This document shows, in pieces, positions 1-39,402 of a stretch of DNA of 39,402 nt (position 1 is the stretch's first letter; each line of letters starts with the position of its first letter). The notes under the pieces are model-generated. The model made no database searches, was not told the origin of the DNA, and saw only the letters and a program-made list of their open reading frames with translations. The DNA is from Candidatus Omnitrophota bacterium (lineage in GTDB: Bacteria; Omnitrophota; Gorgyraeia; Zapsychrales; Zapsychraceae), in contig JADFXQ010000012.1 in NCBI GenBank assembly GCA_015233495.1, forward strand, positions 1-39,402, in the 5' to 3' direction. The translations under genes were made by a program, and so were the position numbers.

Positions 1-285
1 GATCACGTCGCCCCATTCTTCCCTCGTCAAACCATCCAGCGCCGGCAAATTGTCAAACCTGATCCCGCCTTTCGCGGCGCCGCGGCTGTCATTGTGCACA
101 ATCCGCATCCCGAACAACATCCGGCGATGACCGTTAATGACCACCGGAATTTCCACCCGCACTTCCTTAAAATAATCCGGATTCGTCAACTGCTCGACGA
201 TCGCCGCATCTAAATGAATAATTTGAGCCGCCGCGCGGATCTGCTTAACCACATTCTCAAACAAACCCGAAGCGGGCGAAGAACA
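1..285 (-). other. Domain: Glu/Leu/Phe/Val dehydrogenase N-terminal (dimerisation) domain, continuing past the left edge
   Basis: LTNPDYFKEVRVEIPVVINGHRRMLFGMRIVHNDSRGAAKGGIRF; hallmark HN.xRGxAKGGIRF. Confidence 0.88.
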
Positions 286-3200
286 CGGCGAGGCGCAAAT
301 GGCTGTCCCCGCCGGGCTGCTCCCCCCGGATTTGGGACCGGCAGTTGGTTGCCAAATCTTTTGATTCGCCCAATCAACCAAACGCTTGCGGTATGACAAA
401 TCTTTCTGCAATTCGGATAATGAAAAATAGATCCCCTGATCCGGGCAGGCGAGGGCATTGACCGCGAGCTGAGTCATCGGATGCCAGGGGTTGGGCAGCG
501 TGTCGTAACAGACTCGATCACGGTATTCCGGTTCAAATCCGGCAGGATCGTAATCATGAAGATAATTCCAACGGGATAGAAGCGCGTAATCCAACGCGGT
601 AGGTTGCTGGGTCGAACCGGGATGCGGTTCCAAATGGGCTGAAATATAATCATCAATCGATATAAATCCTTCTGCCTCAGCCACGGGACGAATGATTTGT
701 TCGCGATAATACGTCAACCGATCGCCGCGGATCGGCGCGGCAATGGCCGCGGTCGTCACATAACTCGCGATCAATTCTTCCCGCCAATTGATCGCCGCTA
801 ACTCCACGGCCAATCTCTCCAATTCCTCGTGATTCGGACCCGTCGTAATCAATCTCGGATCCCAATATCCCCGGTCGACCGCCATGAGCCTCGCCTGATC
901 TTCCGTCATCGTCGGATTGTCCGCCATCATTTGATCCAAATCCCGCGGGAAAACATGCGGCGCGATGGCCGTTCGCAAGGCACCGCAATTGGCAAAATAT
1001 TTTTTAATTTGCAAATGACGAACACGATGCACGCTTTCATGAAGATAGATAAACTTTCTAATTTTAAACTCCGGCCTCTTTATGACATCACTGATCTCCA
1101 TTGTTTTTAAATCATCGGAAACCGCGAATAATCGATTCGGATTTTTCGTCACGATGATCTTCGCGGCCTTCACGTCCTTTTCAAAAAGGACAACACCTTC
1201 GCTGATCTCTATTTTGGAAATCCCTAAAGACGCGGGAATGACTAAATCGTGGATGTCTTGACGGAAATGATCGTTGTTTTTTATTTCGGCGAGAATCCAT
1301 TGACGGGCTTCGTCCGGAGACTTGAACGTTGCCGCAACCGGCGGCGCTTTGTTCCTGTATCCCGGGCCATGCGTCCCCAACATCCCCCCGATATACGGCA
1401 AGACTAACCTGGCGACCAACACGATAACAATCGCGAGCCACATTTTATTTTCCGAAAACCACGCCGGCGAAGACGAAAAAACCTTGGCAGCCCCCGGGGC
1501 TGCTAAAGGTTGTCCTGCGGATAACAACGCTTCACTTAATATTCTAAAACTCTCAACTGCGATCGTGAGTTCAGCGTATGATGCTTCCATGCATCGCACC
1601 CTTTCCTCATACATGGCATAAATTCCCGGGAGATTATTGTATGCTCCGTAAGCCAGCGGAATAACTGCTCCGAAGTCAAAAAGATCAACTAAGCCTGCCG
1701 CTGTTCTTTGCTCCATGACCAATCTCGCTTGATGCGCCTTGCCGCATTTGCCTTCAAACGATTGTTGAAAACGATTTATTCTCTCAATCAATATCGAATA
1801 TGAACCCAGCATGTCTTGTCGCTTTTCCCATAAAAACGTCAACTGCGTTGTCCGTATTTCTTGTATATCCCTCGCGACCTCAGCGGCGCTCTTTGACAAA
1901 GCAGTGATTTTGTTTTCCAAATCCTCGACGCGTTTTATCAAAGCCAGCAATCGAACCGACAAATCCTGTAACGAAGTCTTGATGCTTTCCGGTCGGCGCT
2001 GATCTTGATCCCCTGCCTTCGACTCATTTTTTATCTCGGGACTTGGGGTCTGTTTCGATTCCGGCCCCCAAATGACGCGCGCAATAAATTCCAAGACGCC
2101 TTGAATCATTTCCGCCGCCGGTGACGAAGTTGTCGCGGCATCCGATTCTTTCAAGACGACGTTTGTTCCGAAGCCGATATAACTTTCTTCTGGAAAAGAC
2201 AACAACGGGTGAAGATTTTCGTCTCGGTTGGTTCTGCGCGCCATAACCATATAGAGCTCGATATCTTTTCCGGAAAGAAGAACTTCTCCTTGAGGATCAA
2301 AATCGACGATTTCGTCAAGACCGGTAATCCGGAGGCCGACAGAAACCGGCATATAAAATAAATCGCCAAAATTAGATCCCGGCCGCTTCTTCAAAAACAA
2401 CTCTCCCTGCTGCCGCGCGGTCACTAATATTTCCGCGGCTGCGGTCGATAATTTTTCCGACAACAAATGATAAAAATAACTTTTGCGCAGCAGCTTTACG
2501 ACAGGATCGTCCGGCGCGGCGTCACCGGCTTCCTCCGGCGTCTTCGTCTCATAGGCCGTAAGAACTTGAAAAGCAATTTTCGCTTGTTGATGGCGAAGTA
2601 CCTCAATCTTTCGCGCCGCGCCCATTTTACGGAATTGCGAACCCATAAATACAATCGTTGATTCAAGGCCATTGATCACCTCATCCCAACGCAATATGAC
2701 AATAACTAACCCGGCGATCCAGAACAGCGCTGGGATTGTGACAAATAACGCCAAACACATGAAAAGTGTGACGCCTCCCAACAATATGATCCCGACAGCA
2801 CCGGCGGCCATGATCACGATCCGCCACAGAATCGATGATCCGCGATTTTGCTGTTTCCTAAAAAGATCGCCGAAATAATGGGTCAAACGCCCCAACCCGC
2901 CGCGCGGCTTCCATTGTTGGTAACCGTCATCATCGACGGGCGAAGAAGATAAAAGCAATGCCGCGTCGATTCCCGAAACACCGGTCTTTACCGGACTTCC
3001 CGCCACCGGTATATTCGGGATATGCCGATTTCCCGCCGACCCATCCCGGTTGACCCGAGACGTTTGTGGCAATTCTGCTGGCGGAATCACGACGCATTGC
3101 GCGCGATCTGATTTGTTTTGGCCGACACGCGTGCGTCCTATTTGACTCGGCTGATATTCAGACAGGCGCATCAATTCCCGCCAGTCTTTCAAATCTTGAA

Positions 3201-6200
3201 TGCGCTTTTTCACCACTAAATTGACTAATGTCTTATGCCCGAACGCGAGCCAATCCTCTTGACGGGTTGAACGCACTTTGGGCATATGCCGTCGCACATA
3301 TCGCACTGCCTCTTTTGGGGTGAAATGATCCGAAGCGATCCCGACTAATTTCACCCAATCCGCGATACCGGGAATATTGTGACGGCTCACGTGTTTCACA
3401 AATGCTTCCTGACCCGCCGCGAGCCAAGCATACTGACGGATCGATCCGATCAGAATAAAATTGACGTTAAAATAAATAATCGCGTCGCCACGGGTCATCG
3501 TGCGTAAACGGACGGCCGCCAGACTCGGCCAACCGTGAAAACCTTTGACGTGGATGGCAGACACAATATCCAAAAAATCGGCTTGCTTGCGTTTGCGCCA
3601 ATCCGTTTCTCTCAGCGAGATAATCTTGGGATAATATTGATCCAAATACGCGTTCACCCCGGCGATAGCAAAGCCATTCCAAGCGCCTGAACCCGGGATG
3701 AATTGCCGTTCTACAAGTTTGACAAAAACCTCGTGTCCTTTCGCGGCCCACAGCGCTCTTCGGTGCGAACCAACCGCAAGCAAATGTTTTTGAAAATAAG
3801 CAAGCATATCGTCTCGATTCAGAGCCCGCAAAGCGGCTGTCGAAAAATCATGCCAACTCGACCACCCGTTCTTTTTATCGGAAACCCAATCCACCAAATC
3901 CCCGTGTCCCGCCGACCGCCAAGCTGCCGCGTCAATGGCCATGACATCGGCGAAATGCGTTCGAAACTCGTCGACCGCGGAGAGAATATTAAAACAAACC
4001 GCCGCCTCTGCCGGTTGCCGTGACGCGGCAGAACGAACCGCTTCTTCCGCCCTGGCATAGCCGCAGGCGTCAGACGCCAGATCCGCGTAATGACGCAGGC
4101 CGTCCTCTAAAAGTTGCCTGACTCGTTCTCTCTCCAACGGCTCATTGACTGACTTGTCTTTGCGGGGCAATGCGGCGCCGACTGTTTCCAATATTTTTCC
4201 TTCCAAGACCACTGCCACAATCACCTGCGCCACTCGATCTTCCGCGCGGTTTGGCAAAACAAATTCCCAAAACGCCACTAACCATTTCCCATCATGCGCA
4301 TATTCCAGTTCGCGCATATTACGATGTTCTTGCGCCGCGATGAGCCGGCTATAAAGGAACATCCGGGCGAGATCATTCGCCCTCACAGCGCCGGGAATCC
4401 AATCGTTGATGGTCATCGTATCCCGGATATACTCTTGAATCACTCGCGAAGCGTCCAGCATCGCGATCAAAGCCTGGGTATCCGCAAGTTCCCCCCAGAC
4501 CTTGGCCCATTGCTTAGTCTGATTCCAAAGCCGAATCCCCTCCCTAAAACAGGTTTGAATTTTGAGGGTATTGGGCTGAACCCCGGGTTCAACCGCGAAT
4601 TGATGCGAATAACGCATCAACCACAACCACACAATCCTTACCGCATCCTCGACGGAAACATCGTCTCCCAAGGCTGACGCAAGCGGTTGGCGCAGTTTTA
4701 ATAATTTGGCAATCCAATCTTCTGTCAGCATAAATGCCGCATCGCCCAAGGAGCCGTTTAATTCCCGCAGCGTTTTTTCCACGGCCAACCGCGCCTGATC
4801 CATGGCAGTTTGCCTGTCTTTCGCCTTTTGCATTTGGCCAGGCAGAAACTCGATGATCGCATTCGCGATCAAACGCAATCGTGTAGATAGCGGATTCCTT
4901 TCCGGAAAATCGAAATCGGCTAACAGCAGCCGCAGCCTTTGATCAAATTTCGCCTCAATCTCCGGAGTCATGGCCTCACCCAGCGCCTGAATAATATCAA
5001 CAACATACCGACGCACCAGAGCATCGCCGCGGATCATTTGATACAGCGCTTCCTTTGTTTCCGCGTCCGTCTCCGCCTGAAACTCTCTCACCAAGGCATT
5101 GATCCGCGTCCAATCCCTCCATTCCAACCGCTCCCGCGCAACCGACCCCGCCGGCGAGCTCTGAGCCAAAGCGCCCTGCCCCAAGCGAAGCGGCGATGAA
5201 GTTCCGGACCCCCTCTGTTCGACTGATGATGAATTCAGCAATATGGAAGCAACTTTGAACTCATCGATACGCTGCGGAAGGCTGGGCCAGCCAGGCTCGG
5301 CCCCGAACGCGCCGAATTGTGAAGCGACCACGGCCAAAGACGCGTTGACAGCAGGAAGGGCCGCGGGGATGGAGCGCGAAGTTTCCCGTACCGCGAGAAA
5401 TACCCGGCCGCGCCGAATATGATTTAGAGCTTCGTCCGACGCCCGGGCCCCTGAGGACGCGCGCCGAAATCCGTTTTCCTCAGTCGTCATTCCCTGCGCC
5501 CGGGCAATCGTAGGGAGCACCCGCATCTTATAATAATCCGTTAATGACAAGCCGATTTGCTCGGCCCGTATCGCCCGCCCGGCAATTTGCGCGTAATACG
5601 CAGGCGTTTCCTGTTGCCAGCGCAGCTGAAAAGCCCGTTTCATCAGCCGTATAAACGAACCAGGCTTGACAAGGTTATTGCGCGGCGCCGTGTCGCCCGC
5701 GTGCGGCTTAACAAGTTCGACCAGCCGAGAAAATTCCTCCATGGTCCGCAAATATTGCTGGCGCAGGACGATCTGAGAAGGAGTCAAATGCACGGCCTCA
5801 TGAAGTAAATTTAAATCAAAATGCTCGACCACATCATCAAGATAACCTGAGTCATAAACAAAAGTGTTTTGTTCCGGGATGACGCCAACCAATCGTCGTT
5901 CATTGTCACTTTTGATGACTTTACCTTCCCGGGCAATAAGATATAATTGCCGCACTCCCTGCGTAAGTTCGTCTTTCGAGATGCCTATGGCCGAAAGAGG
6001 CAGACTATTGATTTCGTCCTGATAATGATGGTGGGCCTCGATCGCCTTCAGAATAAGTCCGCGTGCCGCTTGCAGGGCAGCGGCCGGCCGCTGTTTCCTC
6101 TTCCCCGAAGGTTTATGCCGCGGCTGGTGTTGCTTTCCCGTACGCCCCTGTTTCTCGTCACCATGCGCCGGCGAGGCGGATATTTTTCTTTCAAAAGCCA

Positions 6201-9200
6201 AAACCGGCGGACCGGACGCGTCGACATAACCAAAATTTCCTAAGGACAATTTTGCCAATTCCGCGGAAGACGGCACGCGCACAAACCGGTCATTTTCCTG
6301 ACCGATCACCGGGTAGCTGTATCGCGTCCGCACGTCGGTAATATATAACGCCTTTGACGCGAGGCGGGCCTTTACCCCCAACGGAATAATCTGCTCATTA
6401 AAACCATCGCGGGCTTTTTCAAATATCACGTCGATATCTCCGCAATCAAGGGGCGAGAATCTTGCCAATAATAATTCCGGATATTCACGATGGACTGTGC
6501 CTCCGACCCAGATTACTTTCCGCGAACGAGCCGATTCTCCCGGATAAGCCCAAAAAAATTCTTGTTGATAAATATCCGCGCCAATCTGTCGCGGCGCGCA
6601 TTTCCCAATCCCGAGAGATTCCATTTCCCACGATAAAACCGGCAGCATTCCGATCAACGCCCAAATTTGATTGATCCTTCCGGTGGTTATATACCCCGAA
6701 TATTTTTTCTCCGCAAAATATTTATTCCGCCAAGTTTCAATCAGCTCGGAAACCGATAACATCGGCAAATGTCTAATATCCGAATGCGTGGACCACCATT
6801 TTTCAATAATCGCCTGTTCGACCAACGGCTGATGGAGCAGTAAATCTTCATAATGTTCATCAACCATGAGGATCACATCCGGATTCGCGGCTAATAAAAC
6901 ACTGCTCAGATCGCCGCCCGCGGAAAGATATAAAACGGTACGTGTGACTTGGTCGTCAAACCGCGGTTCTACCCATTCACAGCGCATCAACTTCAAACAG
7001 TCATAAGTCCCCTGTCCCATAAATGCCGGCACATCGACCGCGCTGGACGATAAAAAAACACCGATGTTATCTGTAACAATATTTTTCATTTCTATCCGCA
7101 GCAACCCCGGCAATGACCTTAAATGCAACGGGGATGACATTGGCCGTTCCGTATCCGATAATTCTCGCTTTAATTCTTGTAATTCCTGCTCGATGCTTGA
7201 TGGATCCCGCTCCTGTAACATCGCGTCGAGCGCCTGTGCTTCTGCCGCGATCGATCTCTGCTGAATTTGGATGTTTAATAGACGTCGTAATAACGCCTCG
7301 AGCTCCTGGCTCAAATCCGCTGCCGTTTCATATATCGTTAGCCCCTGATTCAATCTCGGGCGTTGGTCAACGTCATCGACAATACTCCGCGTTCTCCTTA
7401 TTTTTATGTCTTTTTGGCGCTGCGCCAAATAAAATAAAACAGCTGGTTTCAATGCTTCATAAATATTTTTCAAGCCAATTCTTAAAGGCTTAAAACCCTC
7501 AATGATATTTTCTATTTCACCTGCCTCCGGAGCTTCCGCTGTCAAACAACCATTCATTAAATGATCCAGTGACTGCATTAGTCCAATTAAACTTTTACGA
7601 GCTGATTCAACTTCCACCTCCAATACCGAAGCTCGCCTCGATTGAATAATCTCCCGCAACCTCCGGTTAGCCGGCTCTTTCCATAATCGTTCTAACCGGG
7701 CCTGATAATTCTCTACTTTCCTTTTTTGTTGGATGATCTCCTGTAGACGCGCTTCCAATTCCCTTATCTTCCTACGTAAAACGCGAATATTTTCATTTCT
7801 AACGCGTAAGGCTTCTTCATCCAACGGCTTCGACTTGACAATAAGCCTGCGGCGTTCAGACGCGTCCTGAAGCGTTGACAGAATATCTAAAGATCCAGGA
7901 ATTTGGGCTTTAACAAATTGTTCTAACTTAGTTATTAAACTTGATAACCGATCTAAATTACTGCTGTCCGACCATAACAGAATATAATCCAAAACTTCAC
8001 GGCCAAAATTGGCTTCCGGGAGCCATCTTGTCATAATTTCTATCATCTCAAGCAGAGACCTTACCTCCTGCCCAGATCGATCCACATCCTGCCGAGCCAA
8101 TTCCGCAAGTCGCCTGCGTGCCGCACTCCAATCATAAAAAAGGCGCTTAATATTTAAGGGAACGTCGACTCCCGGATCAAGGTCTAACAGCAATGCCGCT
8201 GCCCTGGACTCAATTTCTATTCCCTTAACTTCCCCTTCCTCGACAGCTAAATTTACCGCGGCCTGCATTTCGTTGAGCGCTCTTATCGGCCCTCTTTGAA
8301 CATCTCCCAGATGCGTCTCATCAACCCATGCCGTTATGCGCTCTGAAAATTTCTCAATCCCATCCATATCCGCGATTTCAGCAAAGAACGCGCGCAAACC
8401 GCCAAAATATCCCATAATGATTTTAGCTGGGCCCTCTTCCATTATTTCTGCCGGCCGGGCCCTGACGAGCGCCTCCACCAAAAGATCATACTCCTCGCCG
8501 AAAACTCTCGATTCCGTTTCCCGAATTTTTTGTCTGTAATACTCCATCGGGTTACTGGGCAATTTCGCCCGATTTTCACAACAGCCTAAAACAACCGTAA
8601 ATCGTCCGTCACTTTGTGCCGAAGTTATAACCAAATATAATCGGTCCTGTCTCCGAAAGGGTTTCAGCTCATAAAGTCCTGCAAAATCCTTTCCGGCGCT
8701 TAGTGATTTGATACCGGGTGGCAACGGCTCATTGTTCCGTTCCGCCTGATCTAACTTAACTAGCTCAATAACCAGTTCCCGCCAGTCGTCATCGGACCAC
8801 AAACGCGGTTGCCTGACCAAATCTGCAAATACGCGGCTGAACGCTATATGAAAACAAAACATTGGCAACTCGGCTATGGGGCTGGATGAAGGGAGGCGGG
8901 AATCCAAAATTTGATGGATGTTTTGGACGACCGATCGAAAATCCTGCTGGCGCCGCTGCGGAACCGCGACAGTGATTTTGATCAAACCGCATTCTAAAAC
9001 CGTCCGGCACTGCTCAAGCGGGGTGGTTAACGCTTCTTCGGATTGCAAAGTCTCGATCCAGTCGTCTTGCGCAATCCCTTCCCGGACAGTTCCCGGCCGC
9101 GCGTCTGCCGCGGGTCGTTCAAAATGGACCGCGGATTGCGAGATAAAAAACCGAAACTTCCAATCTGCTGGCGCGGCGTATTGGATTCTCCAAAATTTTC

Positions 9201-12200
9201 CGCGGTAATACGCCCGCTTCGCCGGTTGCGCCGGGCCAACATATAACCGTTGGTCCTTAATGAAAGCCACAATGTCATCGTCGCTGATAAAAGCATACCG
9301 TAGGTTTTTCAGCGCGATCAGCTTAGCGGCCGTTGACGATTTTCCGGCGCAAGAACGACCGACGATTATAACTGCCCGGTCGGTTTGCCGGTCCCAGATC
9401 AGATTCCCGTGAATATAAAACATATTATGCTGCTGCATCACCTGCAAAGCCCGGAAACAGGACTGATATTGTGTCTCTTCCGCGGCAGTACGAATTTCTT
9501 TTTGCCCAATCACCCGGGCATAGGCGCGCAAATAGGTCGGTTCAAGAGTAGGGACATCGCTGGACCGTAAACATTCAAAAATCTTTTCCGCAGGGTAAAT
9601 TTCCGCGGCTTCCTTCCCCGGACTGGAACAAAGGTCCGTTTCCAAAAATAAAGGAAGCAAGCTCTGCGCCCGGGGATCCACGCCGCCGGTCCGATTTAAA
9701 CCGTAACTGGCAAACAAAGCGCTTCTCCCAACACAACCATGATCATTGCCTTCGCACACCGGCGGACATTGCCCGATCATATTTTCATGCAGAGCGGCAA
9801 TCGCCGGCGCGAAAGCAGTTTGGATCGGCGAAGCAGACATGGAAGATCTGCCGGAATCCGCCCGGAAACGCGCCTCGGCCGGCGAAGCGGCTTGCAAATC
9901 ATCCGCGATCATCGTCCCCAATTTGCGGTTCAAATCAAACCGCGGATTGGCATAAATTCCCCGCCCAAAATCACCCAAAGCTTGTCTCATCCGCGGCTCA
10001 AAAAATAACCGCAGCATCAAAGACGTGGCAGGATCCGGCAAACTGCTAAAACTATACGCTGTCATTTCTGCCAAGAGGGTGTGTAAAATATATTGTTGGG
10101 TTACGTCCCCGACATCAGCCGCCCTTTCTTCCATATCGCTTAACACCCGATTCAGCCACAAATGACACAAATAAAGAAACGGTACGCCCAACTGCAAAGC
10201 CGCGCATAAGGACATCGCACCCGTGACACCAGCTGGCAGCTCTCCTTGCGCCAGGCCTAAGAAAAGCGCGTACCTTCGACGATCAACAAACGGGGCCGGA
10301 ATCACAAACACGCTTCCCTCCGGCCGGTCAAAATCCGCGTCGCGCAACACGCAAGAATCATCATCCTGTCCGTACGCGTTGGCAAACACAAACACATCCC
10401 TACCGGCGAAATATTCTCGCCCTCCCGGCAAGGACCGGGCCTGTTCCAGCAAACGAAAATAGTTGCGCGAGTCGCGGTGATACACATGTCCCCATAAACC
10501 ATTGACGATGCGCTGCCGCGCTCCCTCGCTCAATGACGCGAGTAACGGCAATTCCGCGCACAAGTTGGTTTTCACGATTTGTCGTCCTTCCGCATCAGCA
10601 GTTTGCTGCCGCGCGGTTTCCAAAGCGTTGTCCCAAGGCGCGCCCATCGCCCCGTTATGCAAACCCGATATCACTGTTGTCTTTCGCGAATTCGGCCATC
10701 GCAGACAGTCTCCTCTATAAAGTCCAAAATCCTCAATTTCGTAATATTGTTGAGGCCGAATGCGCTGAGGCTTACCATTAAATGAAACGCATACATCACA
10801 GTCAAGTCGGCTAAAATTTTCCCAATCGAGCGCCGAAAGATTTTCCTCGCCTATTAAACCATTGAATATTTTCAAGCCCGCATGGTTGGTGACAAACCGG
10901 ATATCCGCCTGGGAAAACTGTTGCCGCAGACCGTTAAACAAACTTAAGCCAAAGCCGATGTCCCCGCAACCGCCATGCGGATCCGCGTGCACATAAATCA
11001 GCGGCGATGTTTCCCGATTTTTCACTGGCGAAGCGGCGGTGGCTTCGACGAAATAAAAGGAATGCGGATCGACCTCCAAATAAAATATATGTTGGTCCGC
11101 GGGCAGGGTCCTGACCGGATGGACCCACCACAGACCGCTATGCACATCCAAGGTCCAAACGCGCACCGCGTGCGGTCCGTCCGTGCGCAACCCGATATGC
11201 GCCCAGCGGGTGTTTTGAGTGATGTTGACCACGCCAAAAATCGTCCGGGAACTGTCCGGGAGAAACCGGGCAACTCCTAACAGACCCGGATCGCTCATAC
11301 CCCAATATTCATATTCGCCGTCCACCATCTCCTCATAAATCAATCTCAGACCAAACAGGCGGGCTCCGGTTTGTCTTTCCAAATGATCCGCGTCGCGCCA
11401 AAGCGGCGCCGGTTCTGATTCCTGCTCGGCATTGCGATATCGATGATACGCATTCCAAACCCCTCCGTTTAAAATCAACACATGACAAGGTGTCATCAGC
11501 CACAACGCGTCCAGCAACCATCGATGTTGGTGATCGATTTTCGCCGCATCCCAATAATAATAAACACTGTCATGCTCGAGCAAAGGCACAACCAGATTTT
11601 CTCTCCAATGCTTATCGATCCATTGCAAATGTTGAGACAAATACCAAACCAAATCCAGATTGGGATAATCAGCAATTAAAGATTTCGCGGCTTCGATCAC
11701 CGGCTTTTGTTCATAAATCCCATTACTCCAATTCGGTCCCATTAACTTGATTTGCAAATTCGGATCAAAACCCAAGGCCTCAATCACAAAAAACACATTG
11801 GGGTCCAATTCCTTCATGGCTTGAATAAAATCGTTGCAAATATCGCGATTCATCGTTAAACCCCAATTGATCAACACTCTTTCCGGCAACGGCGCTAAGG
11901 CCGCGTCAATACGAAAACCGCCTATGCCTCTTTGGATCCATACCCGGCCGACGTTAATGAAGTATTCAACCAGCTCCGGATGCGTCAAATCCGGCTGGGC
12001 CACATCCGACCAGCGCCAATTCGACGAACCCCACGGAACATTGTCCGTCGCGGAAACTAAAAACAGCGCATCCTCCGGAGAAACGAGCAAGGCATCGAGC
12101 TGAGGATCATTAATCGCCTTGCCAAAATAAACGTCCGCTTTGCGAAACGGAATCATCCGTCCATTAACTTCCAGTTCGCCTTGCTCCGGCATACCGCATT

Positions 12201-30200: not shown

Positions 30201-33200
30201 ACGTATCGCTTTCCACCGCGACACCCAAAATAAAATTGTCTTCCATAACGGCCCGCATTGTGCCGGTTTGAACAATATCTTTTAACCGCGCCACCCCGCG
30301 CCGAATCTCGTCAGCGGATAGTCTGATTTCCCCCGGTAAACAAAGCCGGCTGATTTCCAAAGCGTAATCTTGATGCGCGGCAAAAGTTTTCATCATCAAT
30401 GCCCGCGCCCCTTCATCATGGACCGTAAATTTCCACACCGGATCAACCTTCGGCGGAGCCAATAATTGCCGGCCTAATCTCAACGCGCCCCAGCCCAAAA
30501 CGGAGCCGCCCAAAATCAATCGCAAGAAATCCCGGCGCGGCATCTGCGGTTGCGCAGGTTCTGAGCTTTCCTGATTCAAGTCCAAGGCAACCGCTTCATC
30601 CTCAACCGGACTGGCGCCTGCCATTGCCGCTGACCAGGACGCTTGCCAACGATAAAATTCCCGGTCAAAATCTTCCGCGGATAAATCCGCCGCTCGCGGT
30701 TTCTCTAAAAGATAAATCCGGCGCAGCATATCCCCCACTCCGCCCGCTTCCGCGCCCGGAGACAAAACCCCGATGAGCGTCAATTTCAGTTGATCCGGCC
30801 GATTGTTGACGATCACCCCAGCCAAAGCCTGATAGGTATTTTTCAGCCTCGGCGTTGTCGCCCGGCGCGCCAGATCCGCGAAATGCGTTTTTAAATCTGC
30901 CGTGCCGCGCCGCGCGAGATATTCAATCTCCGCGGCATAAGCGTCCCGCTCATTCACCGCGCGTAAAGCAGCCACGCGTTTTAAACGGTCGCGGTTGAGC
31001 CTGCCTTGTAAACTATTCTCCAGCATAGCCGTTTCGGTTCTCGGCAGCAGGGCATATAAATCCTCGCGTAATTTGCGCCGGGCTTCCTGCTTTGGCAATA
31101 AATGGATCGCTTCGTGCAGAACAATGCTCTGAGCCTCGCGGCCGCTCGGATCCAAACTCAGGATCTCGGCTAACCGCGCGGTATCCACCGCGATTCTTCC
31201 GTCGCGCAGTTTACGAAAGGTCTCGCCGGGCAGATTTTCGGCAACCAACTCGCCGCGGCTGATCTGCCGCAAAATACCTTCTAAGCTGCTGGCATCTTCC
31301 GCCGACAAAACCGAAATCTGCCCTAACAACGGCAGCCGCGCCAATAAATCCTCTGCAAGGCGCGGCACGGACACCGTTGCCGCGCCGCTCAACAAATTAC
31401 CGCGGCCCGGCAGCCGAGCTGTAACCAAAAATCGCTGAACCAATTCCCAAACACCCAATCCCGCAATGCCGCCCAAAACCAACTTGAGAAAATCCCGTCG
31501 ACCGGAGGGTGAAGCATTCCCGCTCTTTTGACTCGACAACGGCGAACTGGCGCCGCAATCAGTTGGATCGTATTTGCTAACCTGAGCGCCGGTCACATTG
31601 ACGTGTTTTATCCACCAGAGCGGAAAATCCCGGCGAAGCTGTTGTTGCAGATCCGACACGCGTTGTTGATTAACGCCCTCATAGCTGACCAATAAATCAT
31701 GCAAATACGCGGCCTGCCCGTCCGACGCGGGCAGAACCTTCCACCATTCCCCAAAACGGCGGTCAATTTCCCGTAATAAATCCAAATATTTTAATTTTCC
31801 GATTTTGCCAAAATTATCACAATAGCCAAGGCCGATCTCATAAAGCAAAACAGCATGACTATTGGGATCCATTTTCCAGGTTTCGACCCTTTGCCGAAAA
31901 CGCTTAATCCATTGACCGGTCATTGCCCTGACTTCAAAGCGGCTTTGACAACGCGAGAATATTTTCCGAATATACGCCTGGGCTTGCTCCCGGCGTAACG
32001 CTTCCCATTCATTAGCCGCGATTGCCGGCAAAGCTGTCGGCTTCTCAGCGCCGCGAAAATGAATCGTTATCCCTTTCTGGCAAAGCGCCGCGAACTCCTC
32101 CGGCCGCAGCGCTATGCAGTTTACCGACATTGCGATCCAGCAATGATACAAGTGCAACAATTCGATCTTGCGCGAACGAAAATGCGGTCTGAGGATCAAA
32201 CGTCTGCTGATATCTATCCGCTTTCCCTGCGCGTCGGTTAAACCAACCGCTGCTACCCCGCCGTTAAAAATAACGCGGACTTTTTTGGACGGGATCGTTT
32301 TGCCTCCATTGAGCACCGGAATAAAATATCGGCAGCCGATTTTCACAATTCCCGCGGGCTCAAACTCAAAATTTTTCGAGCTCGGCTTAACCGCTGTCGG
32401 CTTACCACTGGCCTGAGGCTGATCTGCTGTCCGCTTGCCGGCCGTCCGCGGCTGATCGTCGGTCGGCTTACCAGCCTTGCGCGGCTGATCGTCTTTCGGC
32501 TCACGCCCTGCGGCTTTTCGCTGGCGGCGCGCTTTTTTCCCCGCGTTGACAAAAATTCCAATTATGCCGGCTAATAACAATAAAAATCCCGTAAAACGTA
32601 CGGCCAAAGACGCGAACAAAAGCAACTGCGGCAGCCGCGACGATTTCACCGGACGCGGCGGAACAACCGGCGCCGTATCCGCGACCGCTTTAGCCTTTTG
32701 ACACTGCTCACCCTTCGCGGCAGACGGGGGTTCAAAAGGACAGCGTCTAATCGGCGCCAAACGTTGGGCAGCTTGCATACCGATCGTCGGCAGACGCAGC
32801 CGCATCCCTTTGTGGACTGTGTAACCCCGCAAATGATTGATTCTCCGAATCCGCTGCACCATTCCATTGGGGCCGTACAAATTTTGAGAGGTGATCTCTT
32901 GCCCGCGGGCGCGCAGAACATCCGCGGCAATGCCTTCCAAAGTATTTTGCGCCGGCGCGTTGTTGCGCCAACGGCCGACAACCACAACCGGCCGGTTTTG
33001 CGGGCTCCAACGAAACGCATGACCGAACAAAGGCCCCATGGATCCCAAAAACAAACCCAAAGCCAATAACCAAAGCCGAACAGTCCCATTGGCAGGAGAT
33101 GAGTTATGACTATTTTTACGCGCAAAATAATTTTTCCCGACGGGACATGATAAAATACTCATAACTCCAGGTGTCCATTGCAGTTCAGGAGATCTAAAAC

Positions 33201-36200
33201 CATTTATTGGCGACGAAGTGCCGAACCCAGTCAGTTCGGCCGAAGATTGCGTTTCGACTTCACTGTTAAATTCCTGCACCAGCCGGCCCAGCCGCGCCAT
33301 GTTATTTTCATCCATGGCATCGGCTTGACTCTGGACCGGCACAAAATGAATGTCCCGGTCCACCACCACAAACACGGAATCTTCCACCACAGTCAAATCG
33401 CCATAAATACTCTCGATCTGCATACCTTCCAAACCAGAATCGGGATCTTTCTTTTTATCTATGTACACCGGCACCCGCGCGGTTACCATATCCACCCGGC
33501 GGATAACGCTGTCAAAATCCGAATTCCGGTGATACCCAGGCTGCAAATGGAACAAACGCATCAAACCTTCAACTGACAAAAGAAAACTTCCCGTGTTAAA
33601 ATACGGAAACCGCGCCTGAAATTCCGCCATCCGGCCGGCCGGGCTTTTATCTGCCAAACCCATTTCATTTAATACCGCCCAGTCATCGTCCTGCATATCC
33701 GTTTCTTTCTTCGTCAAGGCGTCGATCAACCGTTTCGCCGCGGGGGTCAAACCGATTCCTTCCACCAACTGCACCTGCTCGCCTTTGGCCGGGTCATCAT
33801 AAACCACATCCGCTAACAACCCGCCTTTTTCGCCGCGGTTCTCGCCCAGCAGCCACATACTGACCGGCGGCGCCCTGCCTGCCGCTTGCGCCTGTTCGAT
33901 CATCTCGACAAATAATCCCTTCAGCTCGTCCGTCAAACGCGCCGCCGGATTATTCATATTCGAATGAAAAACCATTTCCACGCCTTGTTCGTGCAGTTCG
34001 CCCAGCACTCCGGAGATGGCCAGCATACGGATAAAATCCCACTGCCCCGTCGGGTTTAACACAAAACAGCCGTCATTTTTTTGCAAAAATTCGCCCTGCT
34101 CGTCGGTGCGCGCCGCGACTGACTGCAAAAACAAATGATGCCTTAATCCATTGCGGTCAAAACCATGCCGGCCCTTTTGCCAAATATCTTCTTGCGCTTT
34201 TTGCTCGCTAATCTGCATCGCGTCCGCGATCTCCTCCAGACGCATGGTTGACCCCATGATCACCATCGGCACTGTCGCGGCTGTTTGGCCGGCAGCCGCG
34301 TTGTACCGCCGCTGAGCCCAGAGACCCATCCGCTCCTTGATGTCAGCAAAAGTCAATCCCGCTAACCCGACGAGCCATTCCATAAACTGCCACCCCGCGT
34401 GCATCGCCCCGCCCGAACGCGTGGAAATCCCGCCCATGGAAACCCCCAAAGCGCATTTGACTTTCTGCCCTTTTTCGCGCAGCCGGTCCATTTGCGGGCC
34501 GTTGTTTTCATCCAATTTTTGCAAACGGCTGTCGATCCGCGCCCGCGCTTGCGGGTCTTTATAATCGCGGATTAAACCCGCCACCGGATTATTGTCTTTC
34601 CCGCGAACCCCTCCCGCGATCTGACGATTCATCTTTGCTTGCCGTCCGCGCGATAAAAGGATGTACTCGCTCAATGACAAACTCGCCATTTGTTTGACTA
34701 ATTCCGTGTAATTTTCGTCACGAGCCACCCGCGTCAACAACCTCAGCCACGCTTCCGCGTAAATAAAATTCGCCGCGCTCAAACTCAAAGTGCGGATGAT
34801 CGCCGCGATTTTCCGCTTAACTTCTTCGCCCGTAGCCTTTTCCCCGTCGGCATTTTTATAAAGCAGCCGGTCCAAAGACCGTTGAATAACCGCCCGCTCC
34901 GGCGAACGCGGATTCAATTGATGATCAATCTCATGACCGAGCACAAAACTTACGAAATCACTACTCACGCCTTCGACTATCAAATTCAACAGCCAGCGGT
35001 TAACCTTAATCCGGCCGCTCACGCTCCAACGCGCCAATTGCCTAAACTGATACGACAAATCGAACATGATCCGCAGTTCCCGGTCCTCTCTGACACTCTG
35101 CGGAAAATATTTCATCGTATCCTTCACCGCGTCGATAAGCCGCTCGCTGTCCCCGCCCCAGAGCCATTCACTGCCGGGTTCATAATCCAGCCAAACCTGC
35201 ACAGCGCCTTCCTTCCGGCTGACCACCGCGGTCACTTTGATGCAAGGCAAATTCGCATACCCCGCCGGCAGTTTATCCAGATCCATCCAAGCCATAAACC
35301 CGCGGTTACCCCAGAAAGCCCCGTCACTCGCCGGACTGGAATGGACACCGGGAATCACGCTGACTGCGGCCATTGCGGCACGGAATTGATTGTTTTGTCT
35401 TTCCCGGCCTAACCATCCCAAAATGAATTGAATATTCTTTTCCGTTGCTTCCGGAGCAATTTCCAGCATGGATAACGCGCGGCCCTGCTCATATTCATCC
35501 CCGCCGCGATATTCCGCAATCATCGCTTTAAAATATTCCGCCGCCCAACCTTGAGCGCTGAGGACTTCCGCGGCTTCTTGCCAACCGATCGCGATCGATT
35601 CGTGTAAAATCCAATCTAGCACCGCGATAGCTTCAGCTTCTGTAATAACCTCCGCGTAAATCAAAGCGCTCATGGCCTGGACCCGGTCATAGACATTATG
35701 ATGATTCTCCATCACACCGCGCAGTTCCGGATAATCCAACGGATCTAACGCCCCCAACCGAGCCAAAGCGACCAGACATTTCAAACGTAAATATCCATCC
35801 AGAATATTCTCCTCCGTGCTCACCAACACGCGTCGAATCAAACCGACAGATTCCTCATCTCCGGCTGGCGCGGCTTTTCCCAAAGCTTCCACCGCTTTTT
35901 CCACCAAACGATTGCGGACGCGCAAAAGATCGCGCAATTGCCGCAAAGCCGCGGGATGGCCTGGAGCTGTTTCGCCCAATGTGTAAACCGCGGCTTCCGC
36001 GTGACGCAAAATTTCGCTTCCGCGGCTTATATCTCCAATGTCTAACGCACTCACGTTAATAATGCCGAATTCCTCATCCGGCTCCGGAATCTGTAACGGC
36101 GGCATATTTAATTCCGCGCGAATATCATTGATCAATTCCATAACCAAAACGTCGTTTCTCTGCCATCCCAGCTGAACCAAGGCTGGCGCAGCTTCGTTAA

Positions 36201-39200
36201 AACAATTCGAACGATACATCCCGCCCTCGATCAAAGCCATTTTGACAACCCCATCCGCAATGCCCAAATCCGCCAAGGCTCGCATCGCGCTGACAAACGG
36301 AAAATACGTTCCGCTCTCAAACGGCATTGATAACAATGCTGAAATATGCGACTCCGCCGCCATATCCGGCAGTTGAACACCGGACTGCGCGGCCAAATGC
36401 ATATCCGTGATTAAAGCTGATAACTGCTCTTGTTCCTGACGGTCACTAAAGAGCGCCGCGACCAAATATGACTTCAAAAACACGCCCTCGCGGGCAACCA
36501 AGGCCGATTTAATTTCCGAGCTGAGGTTGAGCATAACCCGTATCCCTGAAACCCGCAGAGTCAGACTCTGACTGCTCAACATCATCTTGACGGCCCGCGC
36601 GATTTCGTCCGGAGTCGCACCCGGCAAATATTGCGCCAAATTAATGGTGTCAGACCCCAATATCCCCTTGGCAGGAGATGAGTTATGACTATTTTCCCGC
36701 GCAAAACTGCGCAATGCCGCTTCCACATAAGCTTCGCTATCCTCCACCGGCGCGATCACGCCGCGGGCGGACATTTCTTTTACTAAAAGCGACATAATCA
36801 AGCGGCTCTCTTGCTCAGGCGTGTACCACGGATAACTTCCGGCAATCGTCACAATGCTCGGCCGCAAACCAACCTCCAGGACCGAAGCGACAAAATATGT
36901 GACAGCCTCCTCCAACCGGTCTGGCGCGTCAATTGATGCCAAATGATCCAACTTCACATACGACCCCGGAGTCGTGAGATAATATTCCGGCGGCATGTAC
37001 AACCCTTCCCCGTCTATCGGCCGGTTTACGAATAAGAAATAATCCGCGTCAATACTCCAGATTACCTGTTTCCCCGGCGGAACAACCCCGTCTAAATTCC
37101 CTAAATAACAACACGCGACATCCACCCCGCAAACATTCCGGCCGCGGCCGCGCGTGAATTCCGACGGAACCCACACCATCTGGTCAATCAACCCGTCTTC
37201 CAAAGCCGGCGTAATAAATAAAGCCTCGCCATATTCCGGCATATGGAAAGCCTGCGCTGCCCGGCGCGGCCGCGGCGCCCGGCGCATTGGCGCTGATAAA
37301 TCATCATGCGAATCCACATGCAATAAACTAAACAGCGGCTGCATCCCGAAACGCAGTACGTCGTGCCACCACCAGTTATAAGCCCCACCATGTCTGTTCA
37401 TAATTCGCGCCTCTGGCAAACCCGTGGCCGCGGAAGAATGCGAAAATTTTCGTTGTCCCATAAAGATGTTATATTCCATCCAAACATGATTGCCGCGTAA
37501 AGGCTGTTCTGACGACAATACCGCGCCCATTTTCCGATAAAATTCCCAGGACTGCTCTGTTGCCGTGATTTTGATAACGCGAACTCCCGCCTCCTGACAC
37601 ATTGCCACCAACCGTTCAAACAATAGCCGGCCCAAACCTTGTCCCTGATAATCCGGATGCACGGCAAACGCATTCCAAACGGTAAAATTACTAAATGGAA
37701 TAAATTGAAATCCGCCGACAATCCTTCCCGTCGGAGTCTGAACGACAAAGGTATGCTTTAAATATTCCGAAGAACGGTCCGCTATCGAGCAAAGCTGAGA
37801 ATCCAAAAACACATTTTTCAAAGCCCGCAGATCCGTTTCCATATCCCGCGGATTCAACGGCCGGATGACAATGCCTGCCGTGGCCGGACTCGAACCCGGT
37901 GTTGGACCAGCGACCAGCCCATTGAATATGTTCTCCATCAAAGCGACCGAGCTTTCCCAGCGATGGTCGGAAAACACCGCGTGGCGGATCAAATCCAGCC
38001 TCTGCCAGCGATGATCCTGGCTGTTCCAAATATGATAGAACCGGGTAAACGCGGCCATAATATTGTTCACGGTCGCATCCTGGCGCGCCGGATGAATCGG
38101 AAACCGCGCCCCGTTCGGTATTTCGGCCTCCTCGCTAAATCCCAGTTCCGGCAAAGCGAACGACCGGATAGTGGACTTATGCCCCTGCCGGTCCGACACC
38201 AAACACGGCACTCCCAAAGCCAAAGCTTCCATCGGCGAAATCCCGCCCGGTTCCCAGAGAGAAAACGCGATAAACAAATCCCCGCACAAATACGCCAGAT
38301 CATACACCGGTTCCGCGTCGGAAATAAACCTCCCCGGATACCCGACTCGTCCCGGAAATTCCCAAACCAAACTCTTGAGTTGGTTTTCCAAATTAATGTC
38401 GCCCGCCCCGGCAAAAATAAATACCACATTGCTGAATCTCGCATCAGAAAATATCCGGCGCGCGAATCCCGGCACAAAATGCACGCCTTTTTGCGAGCTG
38501 ACCCGGGCGATCATATTGATCACAAAACTATCCGGGTTCAACCGATCACTGCGGCCATCCGTCGCGGACCAGAACTGCGTCTCTTGCGCCACCGCAATTT
38601 TCGCTTCCGCCTTGCGGCGCACAACCGCGTCGATGATCGAGTCCACGTCAGCCTCGTTTTGGCAATCAAACGCGGTACGGCCCAATAAACGCTTTTGCGT
38701 GGCTTCCTGATGGATGCCATTCGGCACAGCGAACAAACGACCTTCCCGATGTTTTTGCTCAAAGATCTGCCTAAACCCTTCCGCGCCGCCTTGCTCGTCG
38801 GAACGTAAATAATCTTCCATCTGCCCCTCACTGACCGCGACCACTGCCTGCCCGTGGCGGACAAACGCGGCTTGAAAATTTACCAGGTCCGGGTTGTGCG
38901 GATCCAAAAACCACAAATGACAAAATCCCGGCAAATCCAGATTGCTCAACAGATCAACCTTGTCCTGAATCCGGCCCATTTTAAATTGATAATCCTGGCC
39001 CATGTTGTGTACCCAAGCCGCTGTGTAGGTCCCGGCAAAAATATCCGCGCTTTGCCGATAAATCGATTCCGGGGTATTAATGTGCGCCAACAAGGGAGCG
39101 CACATCCAATCATTGCCAATCACAACCGCGGGCCGGATATTCATCAACCGCATCGTATGCAGAGCGCCCAGTGACAAGAAAATCGAACGCAGGGATTCAT

Positions 39201-39402
39201 GCGCCTTGCTCGCCGAGCCATAAAGCCGGTCAGCGAAATCCTCATTATCCAAAAGATAGTAATCCACGCCGTCGATCCGGCCGCGCATAATCCCCAGATA
39301 CGCCGCCCGCCGAACGCCGTTATCCCATCCCAAACCGATGTAAATCTCTTTATCCGCCACCGGCTTTAAACCAAAACGTTGAATCGTCGCGTGTTTGGCC
39401 GG
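1..39402 (-). CDS. Internal portion of a single giant multidomain protein, at least 13,134 codons, open at both window edges
   Basis: Minus-strand phase with codons at 3k+1..3k+3. Hand translation of many lines across the window gives continuous protein-like sequence: right edge PAKHATIQRFGLKPVADKEIYIGLGWDNGVRRAA..., left edge ...RGAAKGGIRFDNLPALDGLTREEWGDVI. None of the 36 listed minus ORFs is in this phase, so it holds no ATG-to-stop ORF of 60 aa or more. Not every codon was individually checked. Confidence 0.93.
430..1330 (-). other. Module: HExxH domain (HESVH at 1027-1041)
   Basis: KFIYLHESVHRVRHLQ; downstream AAINWREELIASYVTTAA (EE at 775-780) and LTYYREQIIRPVAEAEG. Confidence 0.62.
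1380..1447 (-). other. Predicted transmembrane segment
   Basis: KMWLAIVIVLVARLVLPYIGGMLG. Confidence 0.7.
1800..2010 (-). other. Predicted coiled coil
   Basis: KTSLQDLSVRLLALIKRVEDLENKITALSKSAAEVARDIQ. Confidence 0.55.
2695..2825 (-). other. Two adjacent predicted transmembrane helices
   Basis: IVIMAAGAVGIILLGGVTLFMCLALFVTIPALFWIAGLVIVIL. Confidence 0.8.
3090..3921 (-). repeat. Five tandem ~57-aa protein repeats
   Basis: Units begin at Trp codons 3921, 3750, 3600, 3426 and 3252: WRSAGHGDLVDWVSDKK.., WAAKGHEVFVKLVERQFIPG.., WRKRKQADFLDIVSAIHVKG.., WLAAGQEAFVKHVSRHNIPG.., WLAFGHKTLVNLVVKKRIQD... Spacings 57, 50, 58, 58 codons. Confidence 0.8.
5390..6150 (-). other. Module: HExxH domain (HEAVH at 5788-5802)
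   Basis: HFDLNLLHEAVHLTPSQIVLRQ; downstream FQLRWQQETPAYYAQIAG and LSLTDYYKMRVLPTIARAQG. Confidence 0.65.
6300..7040 (-). other. Rossmann-like, possibly SAM-dependent methyltransferase-like domain
   Basis: TVLYLSAGGDLSSVLLAANPDVILMVDEH resembles the LDLGxGxD...D motif. Confidence 0.35.
7140..7860 (-). other. Predicted coiled coil
   Basis: E/K/R/L-rich heptad-like sequence: QRSIAAEAQALDAMLQERDPADLSQELEALLRRLLNIQIQ ... EIIQQKRKVENYQARLERLW. Confidence 0.5.
8990..9640 (-). other. Domain: P-loop, HPr-kinase-like
   Basis: RAVIIVGRSCAGKSSTAAKLIALKNLRYAFISDDDIVAFI; Walker A GxxxxGKSS. Confidence 0.5.
11030..12960 (-). other. Domain: GH13-family (alpha-amylase clan) catalytic domain
   Basis: GTMADWEDFIREARRLGIRPIIDWLANMHVSK (region I), GIGGFRIDAAL (region II, Asp codon 11905-11907), FFVIEALGFDP (Glu codon 11779-11781), PLLEHDSVYYYWD (region IV). 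Confidence 0.85.
13050..14200 (-). other. Domain: GH133 / GDE C-terminal (amylo-alpha-1,6-glucosidase)
   Basis: [97 protein letters not shown]. Confidence 0.9.
14978..15014 (-). repeat. 37-nt interspersed repeat, SDTIN family, copy 2
   Basis: aaattaatggtgtcagatctcaatatcgcattggcag; encodes ...ILRSDTIN in the giant frame. Confidence 0.88.
15330..16960 (-). other. Domain: phosphoglucomutase/phosphomannomutase, copy 2
   Basis: FVIGHDPRPTSR, GGIMITASHNPEEDNGFKYMTG (Ser codon 16558-16560), VGFDCDADRGNTVIKD, YFVIAGFEGYNGGTILGG. Confidence 0.9.
18551..18587 (-). repeat. 37-nt in-frame interspersed repeat, copy 3 (SAELTGLGTSSP linker)
   Basis: ggcgacgaagtgccgagcccagtcagttcggccgaag; 1 difference from copy 1. 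Confidence 0.93.
18660..19260 (-). other. RelA/SpoT-like C-terminal helical segment plus two ACT-like domains
   Basis: DVDSLYAAIGNGDITVEEIKARL; AAQIMVTVKYDRTGVLRQLARVVFEEQGSL...; EIIRLKITNVPDRMGRLFRIFDAFWLKNTRLNITDISI. Confidence 0.7.
19950..20880 (-). other. Domain: RelA/SpoT-type HD phosphohydrolase-like
   Basis: NMHDIFEDTSVPFTILAALFPNHPALEPMLRAVTKDKANDE and FKLADRLDSMRSDLDL, matching the HDxxEDT...VTK...KLADRLxxMR pattern. Confidence 0.72.
20909..20945 (-). repeat. 37-nt in-frame interspersed repeat, copy 2 (SAELIRFGTSSP linker)
   Basis: ggcgatgaagtgccgaacctaatcagttcggccgaag; 3 differences from copy 1. Confidence 0.93.
20985..22080 (-). other. Domain: radical SAM with SPASM-like C-terminal cysteines
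   Basis: TVEIQVTSRCNLNCVHCIGG (CxxxCxxC, 21970-21993); downstream FKYCYAAHLLGAVGAWGDVSLCYHN...SCQICPSF. Confidence 0.87.
23110..24150 (-). other. Domain: GDP-L-galactose / GDP-D-glucose phosphorylase (VTC2/GDPGP1)-like HIT-superfamily
   Basis: RFGFNGWGAWATINHLHFQMYYIREM; NHLHFQ histidine motif at about 23544-23574. Confidence 0.65.
24170..25870 (-). other. Domain: phosphoglucomutase/phosphomannomutase, copy 1
   Basis: GLMITASHHPKHSNGMKP (phospho-Ser codon 25549-25551), FLWVFDGDGDRLG (metal loop), LGGEESGRIYF (sugar-binding loop). Confidence 0.92.
25890..26680 (-). other. Domain: HAD-superfamily hydrolase
   Basis: VKVVAFDWDETIIHN (DxDxT) and SEVLLVGDNPDADIKAAKQAGALAAAM (motif IV). Confidence 0.88.
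26790..28255 (-). other. Domain: ROK/hexokinase-like (ASKHA fold) sugar kinase
   Basis: VVVCAGSTKFQVAVAG, QVDISWPGPPDY, LNDVLAAGVGEM, SRGLVVNFATGISTAVIKDGRVIDHGVWGE, WTIVLAGGVGTHFGK. Confidence 0.65.
29560..30545 (-). other. Module: Tat-like twin-arginine segment plus HExxH domain (HEAVH at 30127-30141)
   Basis: QMPRRDFLRLILGGSVLGWGALRLG, then WADIILFHEAVHLAPSQ, then QTRWREEVIAHF (EE at 29953-29958). Confidence 0.68.
30620..31510 (-). other. Module: Tat-like twin-arginine segment plus HExxH domain (HEAIH at 31102-31116)
   Basis: SPSGRRDFLKLVLGGIAGLGVWELVQRFL (RR at 31495-31500), later SIVLHEAIHLLPKQEARRKLRE. Confidence 0.65.
32393..32524 (-). repeat. Four tandem copies of a 33-bp (11-aa) unit, charged linker DDQPRKAGKPT-like
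   Basis: Units start at 32393, 32426, 32459 and 32492 (last degenerate); protein ...KDDQPRKAGKPTDDQPRTAGKRTADQPQASGKPTA. Confidence 0.88.
32545..32628 (-). other. Predicted transmembrane segment followed by a basic stretch
   Basis: LPQLLLFASLAVRFTGFLLLLAGIIGIFVNAGKKARRQRK. Confidence 0.65.
32765..32965 (-). other. Domain: LysM-like
   Basis: NTLEGIAADVLRARGQEITSQNLYGPNGMVQRIRRINHLRGYTVHKGMRLRLPTIG; ends with a G(M/Q)xLxLP-type motif. Confidence 0.45.
33020..33078 (-). other. Predicted transmembrane segment
   Basis: TVRLWLLALGLFLGSMGPLFGHAF. Confidence 0.55.
33089..33127 (-). repeat. 39-nt interspersed repeat, copy 1 (FARKNSHNSSPA linker)
   Basis: ttggcaggagatgagttatgactatttttacgcgcaaaa; 2 differences from 36668-36706. 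Confidence 0.93.
33209..33245 (-). repeat. 37-nt in-frame interspersed repeat, copy 1 (SAELTGFGTSSP linker)
   Basis: ggcgacgaagtgccgaacccagtcagttcggccgaag; contains GCCGAAC-ccagtca-GTTCGGC inverted repeat. Confidence 0.93.
33290..34560 (-). other. Domain: UDPGP-family-like sugar-1-phosphate nucleotidyltransferase, divergent
   Basis: KVKCALGVSMGGISTRSGG, then GQWDFIRMLAISGVLGELHEQGVEMVFHSNMNNPAARLTDEL, then MWLLGENRGEKGGLLADVVYDD. The order resembles GHGD...SGLL..L...G.E..F.SN.DN...R..KGG in UDPGP proteins. Confidence 0.5.
34640..35330 (-). other. Domain: HExxH metallopeptidase-like segment (HEIDH at 34921-34935)
   Basis: VSFVLGHEIDHQLNPRSPERAV in the giant frame. Confidence 0.5.
35380..36640 (-). 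other. Domain: HEAT/armadillo-like alpha-helical repeats
   Basis: Repeated amphipathic helical pairs, e.g. LRLKCLVALARLGALDPLDYPELRGVMENHHNVYDRVQAMSALIYAEVITEAEAIAVLDWILHES. Confidence 0.6.
36638..36674 (-). repeat. 37-nt interspersed repeat, SDTIN family, copy 1
   Basis: aaattaatggtgtcagaccccaatatccccttggcag; 4 differences from 14978-15014. Confidence 0.88.
36668..36706 (-). repeat. 39-nt interspersed repeat, copy 2 (FARENSHNSSPA linker)
   Basis: ttggcaggagatgagttatgactattttcccgcgcaaaa. Confidence 0.93.
36720..37420 (-). other. Domain: UPF0489 (C5orf22)/arginase-deacetylase-fold-like
   Basis: LHVDSHDDLSAPM and KQVIWSIDADYFLFVNRP, typical of the HxDxHxD and SIDxDYF motifs. Confidence 0.6.
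37500..37885 (-). other. Domain: GNAT-family N-acetyltransferase
   Basis: VWNAFAVHPDYQGQGLGRLLFERLVAMCQEAGVRVIKITATEQSWEFYRKMGAVL; classic motif A Q-G-Q-G-L-G. Confidence 0.85.
37930..39402 (-). other. Domain: GT-B glycosyltransferase, glycogen/starch synthase (GT5)-like, truncated by the window edge
   Basis: GLGWDNGVRRAAYLG, YLLDNEDFADRLYG, VVIGNDWMCAPLLAHI, NMIARVSSQKGVHFVPGF and DLFIAFSLWEPGGISPMEALALGVPCLVS. The last matches the E-P-x-G-x(3)-x-E-A motif of GT4/GT5. Confidence 0.82.

Follow-up and report, generated by a model that had tools for sequence, protein, structure and literature searches.

How a reading frame that runs from one end of a 39,402-base contig to the other is put to use is the question raised by contig JADFXQ010000012.1 of Candidatus Omnitrophota bacterium (assembly GCA_015233495.1; 2.10 Mb in 111 contigs, genome G000 below). 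The window, i.e. the whole stretch of DNA analysed, was this entire contig (G000:C15). Its minus-strand phase aligned to the window start (3k+1..3k+3; 1..39402) contained no stop in 13,134 codons, while the remaining five frames had 392 to 601 stops each and a longest run of 309 codons. With independent bases of the same composition about 622 stops would be expected in the open frame (probability of none about 1e-277), which refutes a chance open frame. The periodicity of G+C content at the three codon positions (GC1/GC2/GC3) was coding-like and uniform across the full window, and an Rfam search of the window gave no matches (no intron, no ribozyme, no catalytic RNA). A first, sequence-only reading had claimed one uninterrupted minus-strand frame with neither gene end inside it and a product of about 1.4 MDa, and had proposed measuring the stop-free interval in this phase: the interval spans all 13,134 codons, and the calculated mass is 1.47 MDa. 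Since the window is the whole contig, the giant open reading frame (ORF) is cut by the contig ends, and the complete gene extends past the window on either side. The window is thus an internal piece of a single giant Omnitrophota gene.

The chain is composed of unrelated, mostly enzyme-type modules, recognised by Pfam, NCBIfam and motifs read by eye, and its most over-represented tripeptide was Ser-Ser-Pro (SSP), found 25 times in the window compared with 2.0 in shuffles (maximum 6). The tetrapeptide Ser-Ser-Pro-[Ala/Val/Leu/Ile] (SSP-x) was observed 24 times vs. 0.7 expected. In C16, a second giant-ORF contig of the same genome, SSP occurred 27 times vs. 2.6 expected, and in both contigs the residue following it was mostly A, V, L or I. 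The 25 SSP junctions of the window (minus strand, within 271..37893) were located at aa (amino acids) 504, 908, 1355, 2063, 2101, 2619, 3298, 3318, 3406, 5100, 5432, 6163, 6949, 8143, 8378, 9926, 10173, 10756, 11402, 11415, 12153, 12426, 12644, 13028 and 13041, with a largest gap of 1,694 aa; none of them fell inside a recognised domain, though such domains make up 28% of the chain. This is the recurrent, specific motif at module junctions that is expected of a polyprotein. The constrained positions were S-S-P-[AVLI] and, weakly, a small residue preceding them, the other flanks being nearly random; the C-termini of four paralogous HExxH domains all read [SA]SP, with the terminal SP invariant in the alignment. 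SSP-x reached 66 copies across the giant ORFs of the host (about 2.0 expected), 29 in a secreted protein family of the host (1.0 expected) and 36 in its remaining ORFs (17.7 expected). The sequence-only reading made no mention of these junctions.

The serines of SSP were encoded by all six Ser codons, so the constraint acts on the protein, and a DNA repeat was rejected as the origin of most sites by this codon diversity. Three sites do derive from a dispersed repeat of about 65 bp (window:18448-18600; also L018, L020 and L079), which occurs outside ORFs as well as translated in giant-ORF linkers; some linkers are therefore recruited intergenic-type DNA kept in frame. A 37-bp dispersed genomic repeat translated as linker, SAELTGFGTSSPI, lies at 33209..33245 on the minus strand, with copies at 20909-20945 and 18551-18587.

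The secreted host family counted above also carries SSP-x. Its members begin with what looks by eye like a Sec-type signal peptide, followed by a conserved domain whose last residues are RKYFSGG, then a variable middle and finally a GGIDF end domain; Pfam recognises neither the N- nor the C-terminal part. The RKYFSGG domain was found at 32 places in the host genome, and public genomes held at least 495 relatives; the 80 best of these were almost all titled Omnitrophota, in agreement with the host guessed earlier from gene architecture. Within this family SSP-x was counted 14 times in JAFGFL (0.14 expected), 13 times in JAKQKX (0.18 expected) and 11 times in JAGLQN (0.17 expected), with varied codons; it was present in SBBO and DAOWBD, and absent or at background in most other genomes. 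Among the family middles of the SSP-x-bearing genomes were full-length PGI, PGM and PGK, and ordinary stand-alone PGI and PGK are retained beside them. These divergent second copies of PGI, PGK or PGM, in RKYFSGG-family proteins of other Omnitrophota, were seen in L160:1-5931, L181, L164:7836-13880, G144:C38 and G150:C2; the SSP positions of L160 and L181 are uninformative when compared, at 26% identity.

The giant chain resembles this family in carrying spare enzymes. Most of the modules tested retained their catalytic motifs (TASHxP and DxDxDR in both mutases, CxxxCxxC, Walker A, EPGG), and the host genome encodes PGM (530 aa) and GlgA (511 aa) as ordinary stand-alone proteins too, so the giant-gene copies are extra and divergent.

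Our favoured reading, put forward tentatively and with limited confidence, is that the giant gene encodes second-copy enzymes as a polyprotein, which would mature by cutting at SSP-x; the cleavage, the export and the protease are all putative. A fixed tag at module borders, common to exported proteins and distant genomes, favours a recognition site, and the tetrapeptide fits such a site best, most simply that of a protease. Translation of the giant gene would yield a single chain, or a small number of very long ones, made of self-contained modules that meet at S-S-P-[A/V/L/I] and in many cases are second copies of carbohydrate enzymes. A putative protease would then most likely cut at the tags and free the modules. 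Because SSP-x also borders modules in proteins with Sec signal peptides, this maturation probably takes place outside the cytoplasm, and the released enzymes may work in a second carbohydrate metabolism, one that is exported. A wider version, in which some Omnitrophota have an exported second set of central carbohydrate enzymes (giant polyproteins plus signal-peptide preproproteins) with a dedicated SSP-[AVLI] protease, as a general form of bacterial polyprotein maturation, is doubtful.

Several results weigh against maturation by cutting. The cognate SSP-x protease was not found, the HExxH modules being candidates only, and none of 80 other genomes of the order, the SSP-x-bearing G039 among them, had the HExxH domain. 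The embedded HExxH modules consequently cannot be the general SSP-x protease, and that candidate is weakened; their structure model had a predicted local distance difference test (pLDDT) score of 58, with selecase as the best peptidase-type fold match (E 0.41, not significant). The gene's own N-terminus was not found, the frame being open at the contig edge, and export is predicted. Giant ORFs from the order's other families showed no SSP excess, and hydrophobic segments did not follow SSP-x significantly (P = 0.11), so that a link between the tag and signal or membrane segments behind it is unsupported.

The alternative that survives best, possible though less probable than a polyprotein, is an intact giant multi-enzyme protein serving as a scaffold or surface assembly, with SSP-x as an uncut hinge or linker inherited together with the module borders. 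The dispersed repeats likewise sit in linkers, the giant chains of relatives lack the tag, and coats or adhesins have been proposed for Omnitrophota giants (PMC10066038). An inert linker, however, needs no fixed tetrapeptide, whereas S-S-P-[AVLI] is fixed between nearly random flanks and recurs in distant genomes. SSP-x might otherwise be a modification site, e.g. an O-glycosylation sequon in extracytoplasmic linkers, which would suit a Ser-rich motif situated in linkers and enriched in signal-peptide proteins; this is improbable, the motif occurring mostly as single copies at module borders.

Separate synthesis of the modules from internal starts in a long stop-free operon is very improbable. 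The modules do resemble independent proteins, and ordinary host genes do use Shine-Dalgarno sites (261 of 711 first ATGs); these sites preceded just 16 of 289 in-frame internal ATGs, compared with 32 of 378 out-of-frame ATGs, and the in-frame ATGs near junctions were likewise without excess. Internal starts are unlikely since in-frame ATGs were no richer in Shine-Dalgarno sites than out-of-frame ones, and separate starts would not keep the linkers stop-free over 13,134 codons. An assembly artefact or a chance open frame is scarcely credible: the assembly is fragmented and C16 carries a frame break and a stop pair, but the expected stops are all missing, misjoined genes cannot lose stops from a frame, the SSP tag recurs along the whole contig and independent giant ORFs exist in relatives.

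To our knowledge, giant Omnitrophota genes have so far been without a clear function. If SSP-x is a cleavage tag, it gives exact positions for the cut ends and would decide between one giant machine and a set of enzymes made from a single gene; extra PGI, PGK and PGM carrying signal peptides would suggest an extracytoplasmic carbohydrate metabolism in a phylum of predators or symbionts.

The size of the gene is not in itself a novelty, as giant genes are already known from Omnitrophota: Velamenicoccus archaeovorus LiM encodes a protein of 39,678 aa (PMC10066038), and giant genes of up to about 85,800 aa were reported in the preprint of West-Roberts et al. 2023, as cited in PMC13104272 and PMC12057145. 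The giants of PMC10066038 usually, though not as a strict criterion, have few annotated domains, of adhesion type. The window shares with them the phylum, an uninterrupted ORF well above 20 kb (39,402 bases), the lack of catalytic RNA and a poorly conserved content; it differs in having numerous cytosolic-type enzyme modules and a fixed SSP-x junction. With the giants of West-Roberts et al. 2023, as far as the citing papers describe them, it has in common the phylum, the great length and the multi-domain make-up, and processing of Omnitrophota giants into smaller proteins had already been suggested in that preprint (cited by PMC13104272). No description of an SSP-x junction together with cytosolic-type enzyme modules in Omnitrophota giants was found in the accessible literature, which did not include the full preprint. 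The novelty lies in the layout: a string of enzyme modules, SSP-x junctions and spare-enzyme content. As in processed polyproteins of viral type, unrelated functional units share one frame and one short recurrent junction motif; unlike those, this is a cellular gene, and cleavage and protease are predicted from sequence. Condensation, adenylation, ketosynthase and carrier domains were absent from the Pfam matches of the window, in contrast to nonribosomal peptide synthetase/polyketide synthase megasynthases.

The modules, all on the minus strand, are given broadly in the order of the chain. A domain search identified a GlgA-like glycogen/starch synthase that has lost its N-terminus at the contig edge (aa 1-506, 37885..39402), and a GNAT acetyltransferase with a weak UPF0489/peptide-arginase-like domain (aa 507-910, 36673..37884). 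These were followed by a HEIDH metal motif with a weak UDP-sugar pyrophosphorylase-like stretch (aa 1358-2065, 33208..35331), a LysM-like part between hydrophobic segments with a paralogue on C16 (aa 2104-2621, 31540..33093), and two HExxH domains with twin-arginine-like starts: RRDFLK (aa 2633-2932, 30607..31506) and RRDFLR (aa 2933-3300, 29503..30606). Two further HExxH domains lie at aa 11079-11404 (5191..6168) and, behind an N-terminal hydrophobic segment, at aa 12647-13030 (313..1464); the four form one family, the paralogues being 19-30% identical to the first. A region with a weak match to ROK/polyphosphate glucokinases (aa 3790-4230, 26713..28035, limits set from the sequence) and a HAD hydrolase (aa 4248-4447, 26062..26661) precede the first phosphohexomutase, in which TASHHP, DGDGDR and GEESG are all present (aa 4510-5020, 24343..25875). 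The second phosphohexomutase, within aa 7087-8127 (15022..18144), has TASHNP and DCDADR and a changed GEESG loop. Between the two mutases are a radical SAM module with CxxxCxxC (aa 5435-6165, 20908..23100) and an HD/RelA-SpoT-like part, seen by eye, with an ACT domain (aa 6166-6951, 18550..20907). The rest of the chain includes a glycogen-debranching (GDE_C) plus alpha-amylase module (aa 8421-9459, 11026..14142), an HPr-kinase-like part with Walker A, also seen by eye (aa 9929-10175, 8878..9618), a membrane module with a paralogue on C16 (aa 12156-12428, 2119..2937), and, truncated by the contig edge, the beginning of a Glu/Leu/Phe/Val dehydrogenase-like module whose match stays under the Pfam cut-off (1..273). 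A contig scan with aa 9929-10758 as query gave no match.

Of the window's modules, GDE_C/alpha-amylase alone could be recognised in giant ORFs elsewhere in the order: G053 (22,400 codons), G037 (8,679), G043 (7,501) and G058 (6,784). The G053:C8 ORF resembles the window in this module (about 36% identity) and in its equally stop-free frame, but has no SSP excess (4 SSP in 22,400 aa) and shares no other recognisable modules. It begins with an ATG after a stop, with a short, weak Shine-Dalgarno match ahead, and its N-terminus had no match in the host genome; by eye, part of the N-terminal region (L122:5401-7200) resembles a peptidase C39 domain.

In the host genome, four further contigs carried giant ORFs, three of them with SSP-x: C16 (10,238 codons, plus 2,296 more past a frame break), C62 (3,932 codons) and C76 (2,730 codons), the last two open at both ends; C108 (1,134 codons, also open at both ends) was without the motif. 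Other host ORFs were below 3,000 codons in the contig parts read, and one of 4,261 codons came from a search; C81-C88, C90-C98, C110 and parts of long contigs were covered by whole-genome searches instead of direct reading. The giant contigs shared no end k-mers except for a C76/C16 repeat, and were not joined into one gene. A SecA-like-looking part of C62 had no match in 140 relatives. The modules of C16 included a ClpB-like ATPase, histidine-kinase-type ATPases, a class II aldolase, LysM, metallo-beta-lactamase/beta-CASP and HD. At its frame break (G000:C16:6858-6888) C16 is one base short of a paralogous copy found elsewhere in this ORF, and a stop pair (G000:C16:37572-37598) lies ahead of the 10,238-codon frame; both are either sequencing/assembly errors or real decay. 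The antisense of aa 1369-1483 of the 10,238-codon ORF resembles the ORF L038:7920-8405 (37% over 115 aa), which suggests an inverted segment read through without stops.
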